Shown here: positions 4,638-19,072 of the stretch, piece after piece
How the letters are laid out: every line of letters begins with the position of its first letter
How positions within the stretch are numbered: position 1 is the stretch's first letter
Notes under the pieces: model-generated
What the model was told of the DNA's origin: nothing
What the model saw: the letters and a program-made list of their open reading frames with translations, nothing else
Database searches by the model: none
From: a virus
Direction: 5' to 3' (one strand)
Virus record (IMG/VR): IMGVR_UViG_3300022562_002149
Span: 1 to 25,685 of that record
DNA length: 25,685 nt
Made by a program: the position numbers and the translations under genes

Positions 4638-7402
4638 TGGGTCCTCAGGATGGCGTTGTACTGGGCGTCCTCCCACTCCTCGCGGGCTCCCGCATCCTCC
4701 GGGTCCAGGCCAAGTCGGCGCAGGAAGTCCGGGTAGGCGGGGTCCGACAGGAAGGCGTGGAACGCCTCCGGGGAGCGGAAGAAGGGAGTCGTGTACGGGG
4801 GGAAGTTGACGTCCGAGATGTCGAGCACGATGGGCGTCAGCCGGTCCTGTAGAGCCCGCATGGTCTCTTCGTAGGCCGGGATGGTGATGCCGTGGGCCTT
4901 GAGCTGCTTGTGGACGTCGATCTCGCGCAGGACGGCTTCCGAGTCCGGCGGTAGGATCTGGACCCTCCCGGCCAAGACCGCGGTCGCGTCCACGCCCATG
5001 ACCGAGAGCATTGCGGCCCCGGCCTGGTTGCGAAGCGGTCGCGGGGTGCTCGTGAGTAGACGGTAGGCGGTCGCCTCGACATCGGCCCGGGTAGTCGGGC
5101 GGCTGAGGATCGGGTCCCGCCCGGACATCCAGTTGGCGGCCTCTTTGTAGAAGGAGGCGGGGACGTCGGGGCTCGGGTTGGGGGCGATGTCGGCCGGACC
5201 GAGATGCTCGCGGAACTCGGGGACGGAGAAGCGGACCCCGAGGGCCTGGCTCAGGGCCAGGTCGTTCTTGAGGTCGGCCGCGGCCTGGGCAGACTCCGCG
5301 GAGCTCTCGCCCTTCGGGATGCCTGCCTGGATGCGGGACCGGCCTCCGGGGAACAGCTGGTCGGAGACCTCCTTCCGGGTGGCCTGGAGAGCGGCGCGGG
5401 AGCGGAGCTCGAAGGTGGACGGGCTGGCCTTCGGATCGCCCAGGAAGGCGTCCAGCTTCTCCGAGTAGGCGTCGCGGAAGCTCTGCTTGGCGACGTCGAG
5501 GGCGGTGATCTGCTCGGGCGTGGGGGACACTCCGCCGAGCTCGGCCTGCCACTGCTGCTCGAGGAAGCGCTCCTCATCCCGGTAGGCGTCCGACTGGAAG
5601 AAGCGCTCCCGGGCGGCGATGGCCTTGTCGTTCTCCTCGCGGAGCCCCTGGGCCTCCAGGAGCGTCAGGGAGCCGTTCGCCAGGCCGGCGTCGATCTGCT
5701 CGCGCGAGTCCTGGAACCGGGAGAGTCGCTGGCGAACGTCCACCTCGAGCTGGTCGCGGCGGGAGCGGATGTCGTCCTCGAGCTGGCGGAGGATCTGGGA
5801 GTCCTGGGCCTCGCGGTCCTCGAGCCAGGTGCGCACGAGGCGCTCCCGGTCCGGCTGGCCCACGGTGCTGCGAACGAAGGCGGCGGCGTCCGTCTCGAGC
5901 TTGCGTTCCAGGTCCAGGGCCCGGGCGTCGAGCTTGGCCTGGATCTCGCCCGCGAAGCCCTGCGGGCGCTCGGAGCGGTAGCGGCTCTTGAGGGCGGCGT
6001 ACTGGCCGTTGTTCTCGAGGAAGGGACTGACCGAGCGGCGCTGCTCCAGGTCGCCCAGGGCGGAGGCGTAGTCCGAGCCGTTCAGGCTCCCGCTGGCGAG
6101 GGCGCCCTTGGCGAGGGCCTGCGCGTCCTCGAGCCGGCCGTCGGCCAGGAGGACGTTGAAGTCGTTGATGACTTGCTGGTCGCTCTGACGGTTGGCATCG
6201 ACGTGGCGGGCGAACTCGTACAGCTCGTTCACGACGAACGCCCCGTTGCCGCCGAACTCGCCCGTGGCGTCGTCCTCCTGGAGGAACTGGCGGGCGAGCT
6301 GGTCTGCGACCTGCGTCACACTATGTCCCTCCTCGCGGGCCTGGAGCAGGAGGCGCACGTAGCGGGACTCGCCCTTCTGGATGGCGACCTTGCGCTCCGC
6401 GTCCGTCTTCTGGGCCTCGCGTACCCGCGACTCGCGCTGGTTCTCGCGGTACTTGTCCAGCATGTTCTGGAGGCGGAGCCCGTACTCACCGCGGTCGTCG
6501 CCGAGGCGCACCCCGCCGATCACCAGGTCCTCGGCCGCGTGCACGGCGCGCAGGGTCTCGTCCGCGTCCACGGAGGCCAGACGCTCGAAGGAAACCTCCA
6601 GGGCGTTCAGGACGAGCTCGCGGGGGTTCTGGACGTTGTGGCCGTACACCTCCTGGTCCAGGAACTGGGTGAGGGGTGCCAGCGTCTCGGAGTCGATGAC
6701 CTGGTTGGTCGCCACGAGCCGGTCGAAGCGCGATCCGATGTCGCGGGCCAGGTCGGAGCGGTAGGTCTCCTCCTGGGCCTTGGCGAGGTTCATCCCGGCC
6801 CGGGTCCGGAACTCCTCATCCACCTGGGCCTTCACGCCGATGGCTTCCTGCTGGCCGTAGAAGCCCCCGAGGGCCGGGCTCTGGGAGATCTTCTCCCACT
6901 CCTGGGCGAGGATCTGGTCCGCGGAGGGGGGCTCCACCGGCTGGCCGTTGGCGTCGCGCAGGGTGGTCGTCTCGTTCATCCGCTGCAGTACGCGGTCCCG
7001 GTAGCTGGTGACGAGCAGGCGGGCGGTAGCCCGCTGGCGGCCGATCTGCCAGTAGGGGTCGGCGGCGGCAGGGATGCTCCCGTTGCGCTGGAGGAAGTCG
7101 AACTGCTCCTTGAGCCACTTCGAGCGATCGTCCGCATCCTTGATCGCGGCGGCCTCTTCCTCGAGCTGGCGCACGAGGTCCGGGCGCTCGATGGCCCACG
7201 CCTCGCCGGCCTGGATCTTGCGCTCGGCGTCCCGCTTCGCCTCCTCCTGGAAGTACCCCTGGAGGGTGTTCGAGATGGGGGAGAAGTCGAGGAGCGGGGT
7301 CCGGATCTGGCCCGGGTCCGCAAAGCCGTCCACCGGGGCCGCGATCGGCGTCGGCCGGAGGGTCTCCTGGAGAGCCTGGACGGGGTTGCGGCGGCGGGCC
7401 AT
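4634..7402 (-). CDS. Internal virion protein C, gp15-like (922 aa)
   Basis: Component of the internal core that is ejected with the DNA and, in T7, forms a trans-periplasmic tube with gp16. The protein is long, charged and mostly helical: repeated Q/E/R-rich segments such as LEEEAAAIKDADDRSKWLKE near residue 85, and a very Arg/Asp/Gln-rich middle. The N-terminal region, with a Pro-rich start then SPISNTLQGYFQEEAKRDAE, and its place between gp14-like and gp16-like genes fit gp15 of T7 (747 aa). This copy is about 175 residues longer. The ATG at 7402 has a GGAG 8 nt upstream (7411-7414). The stop overlaps the next start (ATGA at 4634-4637). No enzyme motif was seen. Confidence 0.8.
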   Translation of the reverse strand: MARRRNPVQALQETLRPTPIAAPVDGFADPGQIRTPLLDFSPISNTLQGYFQEEAKRDAERKIQAGEAWAIERPDLVRQLEEEAAAIKDADDRSKWLKEQFDFLQRNGSIPAAADPYWQIGRQRATARLLVTSYRDRVLQRMNETTTLRDANGQPVEPPSADQILAQEWEKISQSPALGGFYGQQEAIGVKAQVDEEFRTRAGMNLAKAQEETYRSDLARDIGSRFDRLVATNQVIDSETLAPLTQFLDQEVYGHNVQNPRELVLNALEVSFERLASVDADETLRAVHAAEDLVIGGVRLGDDRGEYGLRLQNMLDKYRENQRESRVREAQKTDAERKVAIQKGESRYVRLLLQAREEGHSVTQVADQLARQFLQEDDATGEFGGNGAFVVNELYEFARHVDANRQSDQQVINDFNVLLADGRLEDAQALAKGALASGSLNGSDYASALGDLEQRRSVSPFLENNGQYAALKSRYRSERPQGFAGEIQAKLDARALDLERKLETDAAAFVRSTVGQPDRERLVRTWLEDREAQDSQILRQLEDDIRSRRDQLEVDVRQRLSRFQDSREQIDAGLANGSLTLLEAQGLREENDKAIAARERFFQSDAYRDEERFLEQQWQAELGGVSPTPEQITALDVAKQSFRDAYSEKLDAFLGDPKASPSTFELRSRAALQATRKEVSDQLFPGGRSRIQAGIPKGESSAESAQAAADLKNDLALSQALGVRFSVPEFREHLGPADIAPNPSPDVPASFYKEAANWMSGRDPILSRPTTRADVEATAYRLLTSTPRPLRNQAGAAMLSVMGVDATAVLAGRVQILPPDSEAVLREIDVHKQLKAHGITIPAYEETMRALQDRLTPIVLDISDVNFPPYTTPFFRSPEAFHAFLSDPAYPDFLRRLGLDPEDAGAREEWEDAQYNAILRTQ

Positions 7403-7405
7403 GTA

Positions 7406-7927
7406 TCAGACTCCGGCCGGGCGCGAGCCGAGGTAGGCGTTCGTACCAGCGGCGACGACACCGAGACCGGTGGTGATCCGGCCGGCGTTCGTGTCGAGCG
7501 GGCCGAGGAGGAGGGAGGGCTTGTCGACCTTGAGGGCGGCCTTCTGGCTCTTCTGGATCTGGGCGACCGAGGCGGCCAGGTTGGTGCGGACGGACCGGAC
7601 CCCGGTCAGCTCCTGGCGCGCGAAGTCGGCGAGGAGGGCTTCCACCGAGCCGCCGGCCGTGCCGGACTCGACCGCCTGGAGCTTGGCGGAGCCGGCGGCG
7701 GCGCGGGCCTGGGCCGTGAGGCGGGCGATGTCGGCCGCGGCCTGCTCGCGCTGCTGGAACTCGCGGATCTTGAGCTGGGCGTAGGCGTCGATGGCCTCAG
7801 CCTGGCGGGCCTTCTGGACCTCCTTCTGGTACTCCTTCTCCTGGTTGGCCTGGCTCTGCTGCTGGTAGGCAGAGAGGCCCGCGCCGATGACGGCGACGGC
7901 GACTGCGACAACGGTGGCGTCACACAT
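7406..7927 (-). CDS. Internal virion protein B, gp14-like (173 aa)
   Basis: Small core protein that in T7 becomes the outer-membrane pore after ejection. It starts MCDATVVAVAVAVIGAGLSA: the MC start followed by a short hydrophobic stretch is the same layout as T7 gp14 (MCWAAAIPIAISGAQAISG). The middle (residues 20-130) is a long Ala/Gln/Glu-rich helix with heptad character, and a second small Ala/Gly-rich hydrophobic segment lies near the C-terminus (TTGLGVVAAGTNAYLG). Length is close to T7 gp14 (196 aa). The gene begins just after the gp13-like stop (7932) and ends 3 nt before the gp15-like ATG. Position, size and N-terminus agree. Confidence 0.82.
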   Translation of the reverse strand: MCDATVVAVAVAVIGAGLSAYQQQSQANQEKEYQKEVQKARQAEAIDAYAQLKIREFQQREQAAADIARLTAQARAAAGSAKLQAVESGTAGGSVEALLADFARQELTGVRSVRTNLAASVAQIQKSQKAALKVDKPSLLLGPLDTNAGRITTGLGVVAAGTNAYLGSRPAGV

Positions 7928-7931
7928 GGGG

Positions 7932-8390
7932 TCAGATCTCGAAGAGCCAGAACGGGCGCTGTTCGTGGCCGAAGGTGGGGTCGAGGTGGACGAAGCGGGC
8001 GCCCAGCCACTCGAGCCACCGGATGTGGGTGTGGTTGCGGGCGTCCACGTAGTTCGTGAGGCGGGTGAAGGGGTGGCGCATGCGCTCGAGCTCCTCCCGA
8101 CTCCGGCGGAGGAACTCGCGGCTGTGCGCTTCGATCTCGGGAGAGCCGAGGAGCCAGGGGGCCCCCAGGTCCGGCTGGCCGGGGACGGTGGCGACGCCGA
8201 AGAGGGCGATCGGCTGGCCGTTGGCGAGGAGGGCGCGCGGGTGGCGCGTGACCTCCAGGGCCGTGTTGAGGGCCTCGAGCGGGGCCTGGCCGGAGGCGGC
8301 CTGGCACTCGGCCACGTCCTCGGGGCGCAGGCGGGGGGCCAGGTACTCGGCGTCCTCCAGGGCGGCCGGGTAGACGACGAGGCGGTTCAC
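7932..8390 (-). CDS. gp13-like internal virion / acetyltransferase-fold protein (152 aa)
   Basis: In T7, gp13 is required for assembly of the internal core. The frame is open much further upstream, but the gene proper starts at the GTG at 8390, which overlaps the tail tubular protein B stop by 4 nt (GTGA). Residues 1-30 (VVYPAALEDAEYLAPRLRPED) resemble the start of GNAT-fold phage proteins, and residues 113-152 (NYVDARNHTHIRWLEWLGA then FGHEQRPFWLFEI) match the T7 gp13 end (NYVWVGNTSHIRFLKTIGAVF...FQLFTI). The acetyl-CoA binding loop is not obvious, so catalysis is doubtful and a structural role is more likely. Confidence 0.82.
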   Translation of the reverse strand: MNRLVVYPAALEDAEYLAPRLRPEDVAECQAASGQAPLEALNTALEVTRHPRALLANGQPIALFGVATVPGQPDLGAPWLLGSPEIEAHSREFLRRSREELERMRHPFTRLTNYVDARNHTHIRWLEWLGARFVHLDPTFGHEQRPFWLFEI

Positions 8391-12172: not shown

Positions 12173-13228
12173 TCAGACGGTCGTGATCTCGGCACACGCC
12201 TCGGGGCGCAGCCACGACAGACCACAGATCTTCTTGGCGAGGACGAGCGTGGACTGGTACTCGATCATGTACTCAGACTCCACCGACATGCCCTGCATCT
12301 GCAGGGACGCGATCGCGCTCTTGTGGAACGCCACCGCGACGGTGTTCTCGTAGTGGCCGGCAACCACCGCGCCACCGCCGTTGGCGTTGGCCGGGGCGGA
12401 GCCGCCCGAGTAGATGTTGAGGCAGCCACTGAGGTTGCCCGCCGACAGGTCCGTGCCCGGCACGTGCGTGCTGACATGGATCTGGAAGCCGGCCACGCGG
12501 AAGACCGTGCCGTCAGCGAAGTCGCCGTTCGAACCCTGGTTCCAGTCCCGGTTCAGCAGGTCGGTCTGCTGGACGAGGTTGGAGTAGGCCTGCGGGGAGA
12601 CGATGACGTGACGGTCCCGACGCGGGACGAACTTCTCATCGAACGCCCGCTGCAGATCGAACAGGGTGGCCACAGCCGAGGACCCGTTCGTGTTGAAGTC
12701 GGCGTCGATCCGGCGGATACCGGAGCGATCGTTGTCGGGACCCGTGGCCGTGATGAGCGACGCGGAGCGGGCTCCGTTCGCCACCATGAGCAGGGCACGA
12801 CGGTCGTACTCCTCCGCGACACCGCGACCCAGCTCTTGGGCGTGCATGGAGCGCACGTCGTAGCTGGCCCGCAGCTCGTCGAACTCGGTGATCAGCGACG
12901 GCGCGATGAGCGGGCCGTCGACGAACACTTCCTTCTCCGCATGCTTGATGCGGTTCATGAAGGCCGAGTCCTGGAGGATGTTGGTGATGTCGGCCGAAGC
13001 GTCGGGCAGGAGGCCCGCCGCCGCAGCACGACCCATGACAGGGAACTGGGCGCTCTTCTGGCGGGACGCGGTACGCGACATGACCAGGGGCATCATGACG
13101 TTGTACTCGTCGAACGCCTCGAGCACTTCGTTGGCGAAGAGTTTCAGGAAGATCGTCGAGGCAGCCGACTCCGTTGCGAAGGAGTTGTTGACGCTACCGG
13201 GACGAGAGAGCAGCGCGGAATCAACCAC
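12173..13228 (-). CDS. Major capsid protein (gp10-like, HK97 fold, 351 aa)
   Basis: Builds the icosahedral shell. Landmarks shared with T7 gp10 in the same order: FLKLFANEVLEAFDEYNV near residue 30, KSAQFPVMGRAAAAG (T7 GKSAQFPVLGRTQAA), FVDGPLIAP, YDVRSMHAQELGRGVAEEYD (T7 YDVRSEYTSQLGESLA), then FKx-free beta segments and a C-terminal LSWLRPEACAEI (T7 GGLRPEAAGAV). The start is a GTG at 13228, chosen because AAGGAG lies 7 nt upstream; this is the best ribosome binding site in the window and fits the most highly translated gene. No readable slippery site or extended second form (as in T7 10B) was identified. Confidence 0.95.
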   Translation of the reverse strand: MVDSALLSRPGSVNNSFATESAASTIFLKLFANEVLEAFDEYNVMMPLVMSRTASRQKSAQFPVMGRAAAAGLLPDASADITNILQDSAFMNRIKHAEKEVFVDGPLIAPSLITEFDELRASYDVRSMHAQELGRGVAEEYDRRALLMVANGARSASLITATGPDNDRSGIRRIDADFNTNGSSAVATLFDLQRAFDEKFVPRRDRHVIVSPQAYSNLVQQTDLLNRDWNQGSNGDFADGTVFRVAGFQIHVSTHVPGTDLSAGNLSGCLNIYSGGSAPANANGGGAVVAGHYENTVAVAFHKSAIASLQMQGMSVESEYMIEYQSTLVLAKKICGLSWLRPEACAEITTV

Positions 13229-13488: not shown

Positions 13489-14019
13489 CTACTCGACGTT
13501 GCCCAGGCGGGTGACCTGGATGTAGCTGCCCGGGCGAATCGTGCCCGTGGCGCCGGCCGTGTGCCAGGCGACGTGGAGCTCGAGGACGCGGGCCGACGTG
13601 ACCGTCAGGAGGACCTTCGTGTGGAAGCCCGTGCTCGAGGCGCTGAGGAGGACGGCGCCCTGGATGGCGTCGAGCTCGAGGTCAGGCGTGGCCGCGGCGG
13701 CCTGCGTCAGGGCGACGCCGAAGTCCGAGTCCGTACCGCCTTCCTGGAGCAGGAGACTCACCTCCACCTCGTACACGCCCGGCTCGAGGTTGATCCGGTC
13801 GTTCGCGTCGTCGAGGCTGATGCTGCCCTGGGTCAGGCTCAGCCCCTTCGGGGACAGGGCCTTGCTCGACTGGGCGGCCGAGAGGGCGATCTTGGAGCCC
13901 GCAGCGGGGAAGGAGCCGGCGGCGACGACGGTGGGCGTGACGGCGGCGGAGAAGCGGTGGAGGAGCGTCGTCGGGTAGACGGGCTCCTTCGTGAAGGGTT
14001 CGTACTGGCGTCCGGACAT
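13489..14019 (-). CDS. Beta-rich protein, possible capsid decoration or head-fibre protein (176 aa)
   Basis: Not a T7 homologue that I recognise. After an N-terminal tail (MSGRQYEPFTKEPVYPTTLL) the protein is strand-rich and small-residue-rich. Residues 67-95 (SISLDDANDRINLEPGVYEV) and the end (GSYIQVTRLG, 164-173) resemble C1q/TNF-like beta-sandwich domains, whose last strand often reads 'GSyl.V.rLg' and whose 'G.Y.v...l' strand sits mid-domain. Such domains are common in phage head fibres and decoration proteins. The gene lies between scaffold-side genes and the capsid gene, which favours a head role. It starts ATG at 14019, 9 nt after the lipoprotein-like stop, without a clear Shine-Dalgarno. 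The function is inferred. Confidence 0.6.
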   Translation of the reverse strand: MSGRQYEPFTKEPVYPTTLLHRFSAAVTPTVVAAGSFPAAGSKIALSAAQSSKALSPKGLSLTQGSISLDDANDRINLEPGVYEVEVSLLLQEGGTDSDFGVALTQAAAATPDLELDAIQGAVLLSASSTGFHTKVLLTVTSARVLELHVAWHTAGATGTIRPGSYIQVTRLGNVE

Positions 14020-14028
14020 GGGAGTGGA

Positions 14029-14481
14029 TCAGGCTTGGGGTTGGTCGGCCGCGGCGGCGCTCTCGGGGCTGGAGTGAGAGACCCCCCACGCCTTGAGGAC
14101 ATCGCCCGCGGCAACGGCCAGCTGACCGCGGGAGAGGGACTTTACGGAGTTCGTGTAGTGCTTGCGGCCCCGCTTGCCGAGCAGGGGGACCAGGGCCTGG
14201 GCGAGGGCCCCGAGCCCGAGGGGTTCGAGCAGGTCGGTGAACGGGAGCGCCCGGTGGCGCAGGATCTCGCTCTCGATGGCGGCGAGCTTGGCCTCGGCCT
14301 CCTGGTCGTCCAGGGGGCTCGGCGTCTTCTGGGCCTCCTCGAGCTCCTGCTGGGCGGCCTCCCAGCGCTCCACCAGGGGGAGCGGGTCGGACGCGACCGG
14401 GGCTCCGCTGCAACTGACGAAGGCCATCGCGCAACAGAGCAGGATGGCGTAGGCGGCGAGGATGAAGGCGAATCGGCGCAT
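14029..14481 (-). CDS. Lipoprotein-like small membrane protein (150 aa)
   Basis: It starts MRRFAFILAAYAILLCCAMA followed by FVSCSGAP: a two-Arg n-region, an apolar core of about 17 residues and a cysteine at residue 24 preceded by Phe-Val-Ser, close to a lipobox. Residues 35-75 are an acidic, heptad-like helix (ERWEAAQQELEEAQKT), and 88-101 form a second apolar Gly/Leu segment (LGLGALAQALVPLL) followed by KRGRKHYTN. I do not recognise the family. A lipid-anchored envelope protein acting in lysis (outer spanin-like) or in superinfection exclusion would fit, but neither is shown. The ATG at 14481 has GGGAG (14487-14491) 5 nt upstream; upstream in-frame starts lie inside the preceding gene and lack such a site. 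Confidence 0.65.
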   Translation of the reverse strand: MRRFAFILAAYAILLCCAMAFVSCSGAPVASDPLPLVERWEAAQQELEEAQKTPSPLDDQEAEAKLAAIESEILRHRALPFTDLLEPLGLGALAQALVPLLGKRGRKHYTNSVKSLSRGQLAVAAGDVLKAWGVSHSSPESAAAADQPQA

Positions 14482-14483
14482 GG

Positions 14484-14741
14484 TTACTCCCAGCGGCTGA
14501 TGGCCTTCACGGCCCAGCTCAGTGAATTGTCGAGGGACTTGAGGGCTTCGTCCTGCTCCCACGAGGGCGGGATGCTGGACACGATGTGGCGGGCGAAGAG
14601 GCGGGCGTGCTCGCGGATGGACTTGATCCGGACGACCTGCTCCTCCGAGAGGGCGGGCACGCCGGAGTCGCCGAAGCGATGGTCCACGAGCCCCTTACTC
14701 ACCTCGTCCGAGTAGTCGGTCGGTGGCACGTAGGGACTCAC
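14484..14741 (-). CDS. Acb2/Tad1-hairpin-like small protein (85 aa), putative anti-CBASS/anti-Thoeris sponge
   Basis: It starts at the GTG at 14741, sharing one base with the scaffold stop (TAGTG). After a short variable N-terminus comes VDHRFGD (19-25), a helix EEQVVRIKSIREHARLFARH (33-52), a turn with IPPSWEQDEA (57-66), and a second helix LKSLDNSLSWAVKAISRWE (67-85). This helix-turn-helix with 'RFG/RFTYH…IR..A..lA..I….P.sRE.slAl..Le.a..WanaAIa' is the pattern I know from small phage proteins placed in the Acb2/Tad1 hairpin family, whose studied members bind cyclic-nucleotide immune signals. Family membership is my recollection. Ligand binding is inference. Lying in the capsid operon, it would be made with the virion proteins. 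Confidence 0.6.
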   Translation of the reverse strand: MSPYVPPTDYSDEVSKGLVDHRFGDSGVPALSEEQVVRIKSIREHARLFARHIVSSIPPSWEQDEALKSLDNSLSWAVKAISRWE

Positions 14742-15622
14742 TACAGGATGCCCAGTTCCTGGGCGACGCGGAGACGATCCTCGACCTCCGCCCGGAAGGC
14801 GGGGTCTTCCTTGTACCGCTTGCTGCGGACGGCCGACGAGAGCTCGGCCTCGGACTGGAACGGGGTCACGCCCCCGTAGTTGCCCTGGGGCTTGCGGCCC
14901 GCGATGACGCGCGGCGCGCGGCCAACCTCGGCCTCGTACTTGGCGGCCAGGCCGTCGAGCGCGAGCTGGACCATGTTCGGGTTGCCCGAGTACACGGCCG
15001 TGTTGAAGGCCTCGATGTCGCGGGCGGGGAGCCGGGCGCGGGCCCACTCCTGGAGCTCGGCCACGGCCTGCTGCCCGCCGAGGCGCTGAACGGCCATCTC
15101 GAAGGCCTCCGACCCCTGGCGCTGCATGTGCTGCACGTGGCTGTCGATGTAGCTCTCGGGGAGGCCGGTCCGCTCCACGAAGGCGCGGCGCGTCTCGGGC
15201 GAGACGTTCCCCTGCTGGGCGAACTCGAGGCTCATCTTCTGGACGAGGTCCGTGGCGGCCGGGGTCACGTTCGGCTGGGGCTGGCCCTGCTGCGGGTCCG
15301 CGGGGACCGGGAGGCCCATCGAGGGGACCGGTTGGGGGCTGGGCTGGCCGTCGGGGGGGATCCCCGCGCCCATGCGCTTCTCGAGCTCGCCGTAGGCCCG
15401 CGCCATGTCCTCGGGGGACTTGAACTTCTCGGGGAGCCAGGCCGGGCGCTCGCCCGTGGGGGCCGGCTGCTGGGGCGGCGTGCGTCCCGTCACCGTCGTG
15501 ATCGTCTTGTTCTTGCCGGCGAGGATCTGTACGGCTCCCTCGATGTCAGCGGCGACGCGGTCGGAGGACGGCGTCGGGTTGGAGTCGGGCTGCGAGGGCG
15601 GGACGGAGACGGAGTCGACCAT
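14741..15622 (-). CDS. Scaffold / capsid assembly protein (gp9-like, 293 aa)
   Basis: Directs procapsid assembly and is lost on maturation. It lies between portal and capsid as in T7. It is acidic and Pro/Gln-rich in the first half, with the family motif WLPEKFKSPEDMARAYGELEKRMG at residues about 62-85 (T7 scaffolds have a similar 'PEKF.s.EDl..aY.ELE'). The middle (about 86-130) is a Pro/Gln linker. The C-terminal third is helical and basic, as needed to bind the coat (ends …FRAEVEDRLRVAQELGIL). Length is 293 aa against 307 for T7 gp9. The ATG at 15622 is 6 nt after the portal stop. Confidence 0.92.
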   Translation of the reverse strand: MVDSVSVPPSQPDSNPTPSSDRVAADIEGAVQILAGKNKTITTVTGRTPPQQPAPTGERPAWLPEKFKSPEDMARAYGELEKRMGAGIPPDGQPSPQPVPSMGLPVPADPQQGQPQPNVTPAATDLVQKMSLEFAQQGNVSPETRRAFVERTGLPESYIDSHVQHMQRQGSEAFEMAVQRLGGQQAVAELQEWARARLPARDIEAFNTAVYSGNPNMVQLALDGLAAKYEAEVGRAPRVIAGRKPQGNYGGVTPFQSEAELSSAVRSKRYKEDPAFRAEVEDRLRVAQELGIL

Positions 15623-15628
15623 GGGCGG

Positions 15629-17245
15629 TTACTTGGAGGGGGGGCCGCCGCCCGCGGGGGCGAGGCCGAACTGTTGGGCGATCCCCGGGCCGACCTGGCG
15701 GGCGACTTCCGGGGCCATGCGTTGGAAGGACTCCAGCATCTGCTGCTGGCGCTCCTGCTGCGCGACCTCTTCCTCGGTCCGGAGGAGGCCCGTCGTGTCG
15801 AGGCCCGCGGCCGTGAAGATCTGGCCGAGGAGCGTCCGCACGTTCAGGAAGCGGTTGAGGTTCTCGGGCCCCACGACGGCTTGCGCTGCCGTGGTGGCCA
15901 CGTTGATCCGAGAGAGCTCCTGACCGCGCCCCAGGGCCTCTACCCCGGTCACGATAGCGGGCCGAACGGTCCCGCGCGGCAGGCGCTTGATCTTGCGCTG
16001 GCGGGTCAGGATGTGCATGAACAGCTCCACGAGGGGGAGCTGCAGCTCTTGCGAGAGGACGGAGAACACGCCGCCCAGGGTGGACTCGAGTTCCTGGGCC
16101 ACGTAGCGGATCTCCTCCGCGGTGACGCGCTCGGCCTGGCGCTGCACGGCCGTGTTCAGGAGGAAGGCACGCTGGAGGCGCTCCTCGATCCGCTGAACCG
16201 TGGCCAGAGCGACCTGGAGGTCCGCGCTCTTGTTCGTCTGGAGGGGGGTGACATCGCCCGCCCGGCCCACGATCGCCGCCCCGTTGGAGGCCCGGTTGAG
16301 GTCATCCGCGACCGCGGCGCCGGCCGGGTCCACGAGGAAGTTCAGGCGGGCCGCGATGGCCGCCCCCTCCACGATGGCGCGCATGAGGCCGTCCAGGGAG
16401 ATCAGGTCCCCGATGACCTCCTCGACCATCCCGCGACCGTAGTCCTCCCCGTCGATGGCGGCGTACCGCAGGACGCGGAAGGGCATCAGGTGGGCGGGGA
16501 ACGACTGGACCCCCGGGACCATGCGCGCCCCGATCTCCTGGTCCAGGTAGTACTTCTCCTCCTCAGCGTCCCACTTGACGCGGGTGAAGAGGGCGATCGT
16601 GTTCTGGTGGCGGCTCGAGTCCGTGGCGTGGTAGCTCGTGCTCGTGTCCTGGGGCTCGGTCTCGGAGGGCAGGCCGCTGGCCTCCTCGAGCAGCTCGTGG
16701 AGCTCGGGCGGGAGGTTGTCCCGGTCCAGCTCCTCCTTGATCACCAGCTCCTCGAGCCACCCCATCGGGTCCCGGCGGGTGACGTACTGCTCGATCGTCA
16801 GGACCCGGCTCTTCCCGTCCTCCTGGACGTGGTGGCAGACGTTCCCCGCCACGATCAGGTGCTTGAGGGCCTCGAAGATCTTGACCCGCTGGCCGGACAC
16901 CTCCAGGGCGGAGGCGATGGCGCGCTCCATCTTGGTCAGGCTCTCCTCGATCTCGGTGCGGACCTGCTCGCCCGCCGCGTCGAGGGCCTCCGGGTCCGCG
17001 GGGACGAGCCGGAAGAAGGGGTTGGTCGGCGGGAACAGGGACAGCATCAGCTTGCTGGCCAGGTTGTTCACGCCCTGGGCCCCGAGCCCCTGGTAGGGGG
17101 TAGGCAGGGAGCTGCTCGAGTGATGCCCGAGCGGGGGGATCAGCGAGGGGATCGTCAGCCGGGCGGCGTCACGCGCGCGGCGCAAGAAGGGCTCCCGGAG
17201 CTCGACGCCCCGCTGGTACGCGGAGGCCGGGCTCTCGATTGCCAT
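15629..17245 (-). CDS. Portal (head-tail connector) protein, gp8-like (538 aa)
   Basis: Dodecameric DNA entry/exit ring at one capsid vertex. Recognised by YQGLGAQGVNNLASKLMLSL then FPPTNPFFRLVP (T7-like portals: 'Q..GA..VN.LA.kl...LfPp..pFf.l'), KHLIVAGNVCHHV, then TRVKWDAEEEKYY, and the helix AEEIRYVAQELESTLGGVFS followed by LSQELQLPLVE. The length, 538 aa, is almost that of T7 gp8 (536). The C-terminus is Gln-rich and ends in a Pro/Gly tail (GLAPAGGGPPSK). The ATG at 17245 lies 3 nt past the preceding stop, with no strong Shine-Dalgarno. Confidence 0.95.
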   Translation of the reverse strand: MAIESPASAYQRGVELREPFLRRARDAARLTIPSLIPPLGHHSSSSLPTPYQGLGAQGVNNLASKLMLSLFPPTNPFFRLVPADPEALDAAGEQVRTEIEESLTKMERAIASALEVSGQRVKIFEALKHLIVAGNVCHHVQEDGKSRVLTIEQYVTRRDPMGWLEELVIKEELDRDNLPPELHELLEEASGLPSETEPQDTSTSYHATDSSRHQNTIALFTRVKWDAEEEKYYLDQEIGARMVPGVQSFPAHLMPFRVLRYAAIDGEDYGRGMVEEVIGDLISLDGLMRAIVEGAAIAARLNFLVDPAGAAVADDLNRASNGAAIVGRAGDVTPLQTNKSADLQVALATVQRIEERLQRAFLLNTAVQRQAERVTAEEIRYVAQELESTLGGVFSVLSQELQLPLVELFMHILTRQRKIKRLPRGTVRPAIVTGVEALGRGQELSRINVATTAAQAVVGPENLNRFLNVRTLLGQIFTAAGLDTTGLLRTEEEVAQQERQQQMLESFQRMAPEVARQVGPGIAQQFGLAPAGGGPPSK

Positions 17246-18688: not shown

Positions 18689-19072
18689 CTACTTGTAGGT
18701 CCGGGGGTAGGAGCGCCAGCGCCAGTCGTGGCGGCAGAGCTCGGACAGGGACCCCTCCGTGGCGGGGTTGAACATGAAGACCGGAATGCGACACACGTCC
18801 GCCGTGTGGCGCTCGAGGCAGGCCCCCTCGGAGTCGTGCCACCCCTCCAGGAGCACGACGGCGTCCTGCTGGAGGAGGGCGTCCAGGTCCCGGCGGAAGG
18901 TGCCGCGGATGTCCAGGGAGGCGGCCTCCGTCCCCCCGACCAGCTCCAGGTCGGCCTCGAGCGGGGACCAGACCTCGTGACCGAGCTCCCGGAGGTGGGT
19001 GGCCGCGGAGCGGAAGACCGGGGCGTTGTACTCCGGGATGCCCCGCATGGGGCCGGCGAGGTAGATCTTCAT
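18689..19072 (-). CDS. DUF4406 protein, nucleoside 2-deoxyribosyltransferase-like (127 aa)
   Basis: The start MKIYLAGPMRGIPEYNAPVF, then AATHLRELGHEVWSPLEADL, and residues 69-88 (QDAVVLLEGWHDSEGACLER) are the DUF4406 signature: a Rossmann-like fold close to nucleoside 2-deoxyribosyltransferases. Asp70 and Ser81/Glu82 sit where the transferases place active-site residues, but I cannot confirm catalysis. A 25-residue tail after position 102 (ending RWRSYPRTYK) is atypical. The ATG at 19072 overlaps the previous stop (ATGA). Next to a dNTP-hydrolase-like gene, it suggests nucleotide salvage or editing during replication; that role is inferred. Confidence 0.82.
   Translation of the reverse strand: MKIYLAGPMRGIPEYNAPVFRSAATHLRELGHEVWSPLEADLELVGGTEAASLDIRGTFRRDLDALLQQDAVVLLEGWHDSEGACLERHTADVCRIPVFMFNPATEGSLSELCRHDWRWRSYPRTYK

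Follow-up and report, generated by a model that had tools for sequence, protein, structure and literature searches.

A divergent protein of the Acb2/Tad1 hairpin superfamily encoded directly after the scaffold gene in a clade of T7-like podoviruses

The window, that is, the whole 25,685-bp stretch of the virus record, carries genes on the minus strand in a T7-like order, as identified by PHROG and Pfam matches. The C-terminus of an RNA polymerase is followed by a single-strand binding protein, a primase-helicase, a DNA polymerase A, an exonuclease and the portal. After the portal come the scaffold, a gene for an 85-aa hairpin protein, a lipoprotein-like gene, a gene for a 176-aa protein, the capsid, the tail tube proteins and a gp14-like internal protein. 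The virus is a T7-like podovirus and the hairpin gene lies within its head-gene cluster (Table 1). Neither an Rfam family nor a tRNA was found in the window.

The 85-aa ORF starts with GTG. A sequence-only reading of this DNA had delimited it correctly, leaving out the strand, and the peptide stretches that it quoted are present in the translation. The translational coupling that it proposed through a TAGTG junction is confirmed, as the last G of the scaffold TAG doubles as the initial G of the GTG codon. Its placement of the gene between scaffold and capsid also holds, but the capsid gene is not adjacent: the lipoprotein-like gene, the 176-aa gene and a 260-bp gap intervene.

Table 1. Features of the head-gene cluster around the hairpin gene (positions in the window)
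Feature	Position	Strand	Basis and remarks
Portal (head-tail adaptor)	15629..17245	-	phrog_449, 2e-158
Scaffold gene	14741..15622	-	phrog_1052 head assembly, 5.8e-36; TAG stop overlaps hairpin-gene GTG
Acb2/Tad1-hairpin superfamily gene, 85 aa	14484..14741	-	ORF; PF24729, E 1.4e-5; phrog_1454, E 5.2e-9; AF2 three-helix model
Lipoprotein-like gene, directly downstream of hairpin gene	14029..14481	-	Signal peptide then Cys
176-aa conserved protein, third gene of hairpin/lipoprotein/176-aa cassette	13489..14019	-	62-75% identity within clade
Major capsid protein	12173..13228	-	PF21703 Gp10A-like, 4.6e-30

A family search with the lipoprotein-like gene gave no match. This gene is fast-evolving and comes after the hairpin gene in every relative, with an ATGA overlap in four, and a lipoprotein-like gene is also found after the scaffold in the T7-like relatives L005 (1876-2319) and L010 (6121-6519). 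The 176-aa protein had no Pfam, PHROG or PDB match; our impression from the sequence is that it could be a head-fibre or decoration protein, small and rich in beta structure (TNF/C1q-like). At 18689-19072 (minus strand), ahead of the head genes, lies the gene of a DUF4406/nucleoside 2-deoxyribosyltransferase-like protein, and an ORF similar to it was seen upstream of the portal in L037.

The PF24729 (Acb2_Tad1_hairpin) HMM profile aligned with residues 30-83 of the 85-aa protein at 25.7 bits, covering profile positions 4-58 of 58, and PHROG 1454 matched it over its full length. The search against the Acb2/Tad1 hairpin family that the sequence-only reading had named as a test therefore returned matches. 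With a curated cut-off of 27 bits, the window protein falls 1.3 bits short, which could point to a coincidental match by an unrelated small helical protein, all the more as structure searches often return two-helix hairpins. The ortholog in L002 nevertheless lies above the cut-off (28.0 bits), followed by those in L027 (26.3), L003 (20.7), L037 (16.4) and L004 (13.9), and PF24729 matched all seven members of our first alignment; T4 Acb2 itself scores 71.4 bits (E 7.1e-20). Against the PDB, a seven-sequence family profile retrieved Acb2 homolog 43 (9ptq) at 3.6e-5, and a 31-sequence family profile retrieved the same entry at 7.1e-10, with Tad1 chains following at about 0.006. Using a model built only from 25 wider relatives, with the clade left out, all six real clade proteins scored 25-39 bits, while 20,000 shuffled versions of the clade proteins gave no match up to E 100. 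Coincidence is thus largely refuted by the profile results, and we regard it as very improbable.

The clade-only profile aligned weakly with that of T4 and PaMx33 Acb2 (E 0.016, probability 2.8%), and the comparison came out somewhat better with the deep family (E 4e-4, probability 35%). A phmmer search of the PDB with the single 85-aa protein retrieved only CcmM (E 0.3), an irrelevant match, and T4 Acb2 itself is matched by none of the NCBIfam models. Judged by its profile matches, the 85-aa protein truly belongs to the Acb2/Tad1 hairpin superfamily, as a divergent member in the PHROG 1454 branch.

AlphaFold2 modelled the protein with a mean pLDDT of 79 when given six sequences and 85 when given 31. 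Two long antiparallel helices (33-56 and 61-84) are predicted to form a hairpin with pLDDT 94-98, preceded by an N-terminal helix (13-23) in a block with pLDDT of only 63-75. Among the 14 best matches in a viral structure library, the majority carry the name Acb2/Tad1 hairpin (probability 0.98-1.00, E 0.02-0.36). In the PDB, the first two rows for the deeper model are T4 Acb2 with cGAMP (7uq2_D; Z 7.8, 2.0 A over 60 residues) and a PaMx33-type Acb2 (8h2x_B; Z 7.2, 3.2 A over 64 residues). Further hairpins score within 1 Z of these rows, however, and ordinary helical hairpins reach such values. Foldseek against the PDB listed Acb2 at E 5.9 or worse, which is not significant, and did not list 9ptq for either model, an absence that does not count against the fold. 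The predicted structure agrees with the profile result and taken alone would prove nothing. Acb2 assembles as a homo-hexamer: dinucleotides are held in pockets between protomers, and trinucleotides bind inside the central channel, at the trimer interfaces (PMC12043709, PMC10419184). A predicted monomer without a ligand pocket, which the sequence-only reading had offered as a refutation, is not a valid one, since it takes two protomers to make up the dinucleotide pocket of Acb2.

Searching viral contigs with the single window protein yielded no relative. Ortholog lineages were found through capsid and portal synteny and a family-alignment search, which placed the hairpin gene at the same position in L002, L003, L004, L027 (also L028 and L029) and L037 (also L038). 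Identity to the window across lineages is 38-60% for the hairpin protein, 46-54% for the scaffold, 57-64% for the portal and 61-68% for the capsid. Estimates of dN/dS (about 0.3-1.1) are uninformative, with synonymous sites near saturation in these GC-rich genes. In L037 (5734-6341) and L038 (5064-5671), the major capsid gene is interrupted by a group I intron (RF00028, 56.3 bits) that carries an HNH-like endonuclease ORF. The only match of the family alignment in a bacterial genome, in a Rhodospirillaceae MAG (L042), was false, as it lies inside a large enzyme ORF (5660-8155).

In all six lineages, counting the window, the start of the hairpin gene overlaps or abuts the scaffold stop. This fixed place right after the scaffold would suit a protein recruited into head morphogenesis, where it would serve as a minor head protein or a co-factor of the scaffold, with the fold retained and nucleotide binding lost. 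We treat this as the main rival explanation, though an unlikely one. Against it, neither the hairpin gene nor the 176-aa gene was detected at this place in the remoter T7-like relatives L005, L010, L030, L031 and L033, which share portal (34-47% identity), scaffold (23-32%), capsid (23-40%) and tail genes, so the hairpin protein is not needed for this head type. From its presence in six lineages and its lack of detection in these relatives, we conclude that the gene is clade-specific and kept within the clade.

The many non-structural contexts of superfamily members also speak against a role in the head. Wider hairpin relatives occur in 320 phage records, some recently annotated as 'cyclic nucleotide sequestering protein'. 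The founding Acb2 of PaMx33 lies at the end of the replication cluster, and vs.4 of T4 in a group of small non-structural genes close to regB, vs and tk. The late-type location of the window gene is therefore unusual for tested superfamily members, but it is not unique, because the relative in Gordonia phage ScarletRaider overlaps the end of the portal gene and the one in phage Jace lies between lysin A and a membrane protein. In Curtobacterium phage JoyLin (L082, 2483-3423), a relative annotated as 'cyclic nucleotide sequestering protein' overlaps an annotated nicotinate ribosyltransferase gene by a single base, possibly as an NAD-linked counter-defence pair.

Residues of the putative pocket were mapped from sequence and structural alignments, in which window position 31 corresponds to position 14 of PaMx33 Acb2 and 11 of T4 Acb2 (offsets of 17 and 20). 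In the helix-2 register, window 84 corresponds to PaMx33 Acb2 90, which puts W61 at R67 and K68 at T74 (T4 T68), assuming a gapless helix 2. R43 occupies the place of Acb2 K26 (T4 K23), which we take to be the conserved basic residue of the dinucleotide site, and is Arg in all 31 sequences. The invariance of R43 speaks against a morphogenesis protein that has lost nucleotide binding. That explanation does gain from helix 2, where the R-x6-T motif present in the 25 wider relatives has been lost in the clade. Position 61 is Trp or Tyr in 6/6 clade proteins versus Arg in 25/25 wider relatives, and position 68 is K, T, K, R, E or H in the clade versus Thr in 24 of 25. In PaMx33 Acb2, the corresponding R67 and T74 presumably act at the trinucleotide site. 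At the place of the base-stacking Tyr of Acb2 (Y11/Y8), the window protein has V28, in a low-confidence loop (pLDDT about 63), and a nearby aromatic residue such as F23 may stand in for it. Mutation Y8A in T4 Acb2 disrupts dinucleotide binding (PMC12657218), and Y8 was also tested in PMC12657230.

These substitutions bear on the ligand. The sequence-only reading had proposed an Acb2/Tad1-type sponge with CBASS-type signals in mind. The superfamily resemblance is borne out by the profiles and the agreeing predicted structure, but naming CBASS signals as targets exceeds the evidence, because Acb2 ligand-binding positions are substituted in the clade. As aligned, the substitutions favour a ligand range that is different or narrower, and they speak against presuming CBASS trinucleotides. 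A sponge of the same fold and oligomer with another target than the di- and trinucleotides of CBASS, such as a gcADPR-type signal or some other defence nucleotide, would be a special case of the nucleotide-sequestering sponge that we prefer. The aromatic residue in place of the conserved Arg and the variability at position 68 fit this narrower version, as does the diversity of ligands among superfamily sponges, since Acb2 binds di- and trinucleotides and Tad1 also gcADPR (PMC12043709). The change T68M in a T4-like phage, at the position equivalent to window 68, is likewise described as lowering the affinity of T4 Acb2 (PMC12657230). The mapping of these residues comes from alignments and monomer models, and we give the different-target version about a one-in-five standing.

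Sequestration of a defence nucleotide, whatever the ligand, is the most likely function of the 85-aa protein, because the fold is shared and an invariant arginine occupies the phosphate position; we consider it somewhat better than an even bet. An anti-defence role is a reasonable inference from family resemblance, and the phage is probably protected in a way similar to that of relatives that bind alarm nucleotides. We infer both oligomerisation and nucleotide binding, and the gene order of T7-like phages suggests late timing. In the mechanism that we envisage, the T7-like clade would keep the hairpin gene translationally coupled to the scaffold, and protomers would pack through their two long helices into an oligomeric sponge. 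A pocket between protomers, including R43, would grip a small cyclic nucleotide or an ADPR-type alarm signal by its phosphates, so that the host effector would not be triggered. Made together with the head proteins, the sponge would be present when capsid-sensing defences fire.

A sponge coupled to head genes would make biological sense, because some signalling defences respond to capsid proteins. For Thoeris, the component sensed is the major head protein (PMC11312562), and a PaMx phage deleted for acb2 gains capsid mutations that aid escape from CBASS (reviewed in PMC10419184). It is conceivable, if speculative, that the clade evolved a sponge with a new ligand and a re-modelled pocket (aromatic for the conserved Arg), tied to the scaffold by overlapping codons and hence co-made with the capsid protein that defences sense. 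If the protein is a sponge, T7-like podoviruses, with a head-cluster location, would join the Acb2/Tad1 superfamily, and six orthologs with an exchanged conserved pocket residue would form a natural set for the study of ligand choice.

Among known systems, Tad1 (PDB 7UAV, 8SMD, 8KBE) resembles the wider family in its C-terminal helix motif SRENACALTHVEEALMW (E 0.006). It has an N-terminal beta-sheet domain (PMC12043709), whereas the 85-aa protein is modelled as three helices only and lacks the R...T motif; no Tad1-type N-terminal antiparallel beta-sheet is present in its all-helical AF2 models. The Acb2 proteins compared (T4 Vs.4, PaMx33/PaP2 p26; PDB 7UQ2, 8H2J, 8H2X) share with it the Pfam domain, two long antiparallel helices and a basic residue at the K26/K23 place (Arg in the 85-aa protein), at 11-17% identity in structural alignments; the N-terminal helix that precedes the hairpin in Acb2 has a lower-confidence counterpart in the model. 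They differ, as aligned, in having Tyr at the Y11/Y8 place, Arg where it has Trp (R67) and Thr where it has Lys (T74/T68), and PaMx33 acb2 sits at the end of the replication genes, not in a head cluster. Since the R67/T74 residues are replaced and the Tad1 beta domain is absent, there are no grounds for classing the protein as an Acb2 or a Tad1 whose ligand is known, which is no argument against its working in a sponge-like manner.

The closest solved sequence to the family profile is Acb2 homolog 43 (PDB 9PTQ; E 7.1e-10), which keeps the R-x6-T motif that the window clade lacks. No experimental assay of any PHROG 1454 protein was found in the literature searched. Actinophage members of this PHROG, such as gp75 of Gordonia phage Bantam, gp73 of Gordonia phage DatBoi and gp5 of Mycobacterium phage Marshawn, belong to other phage types and have other gene surroundings than the window clade. 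They keep a His before P29 and GREKSLAITHLEEAMFW, where the clade has (W/Y)ExxEAL with the aromatic residue at 61. Like the 85-aa protein, to which they are 26-32% identical, they carry the RF motif, the invariant Arg, P58 and the helix-2 pattern.
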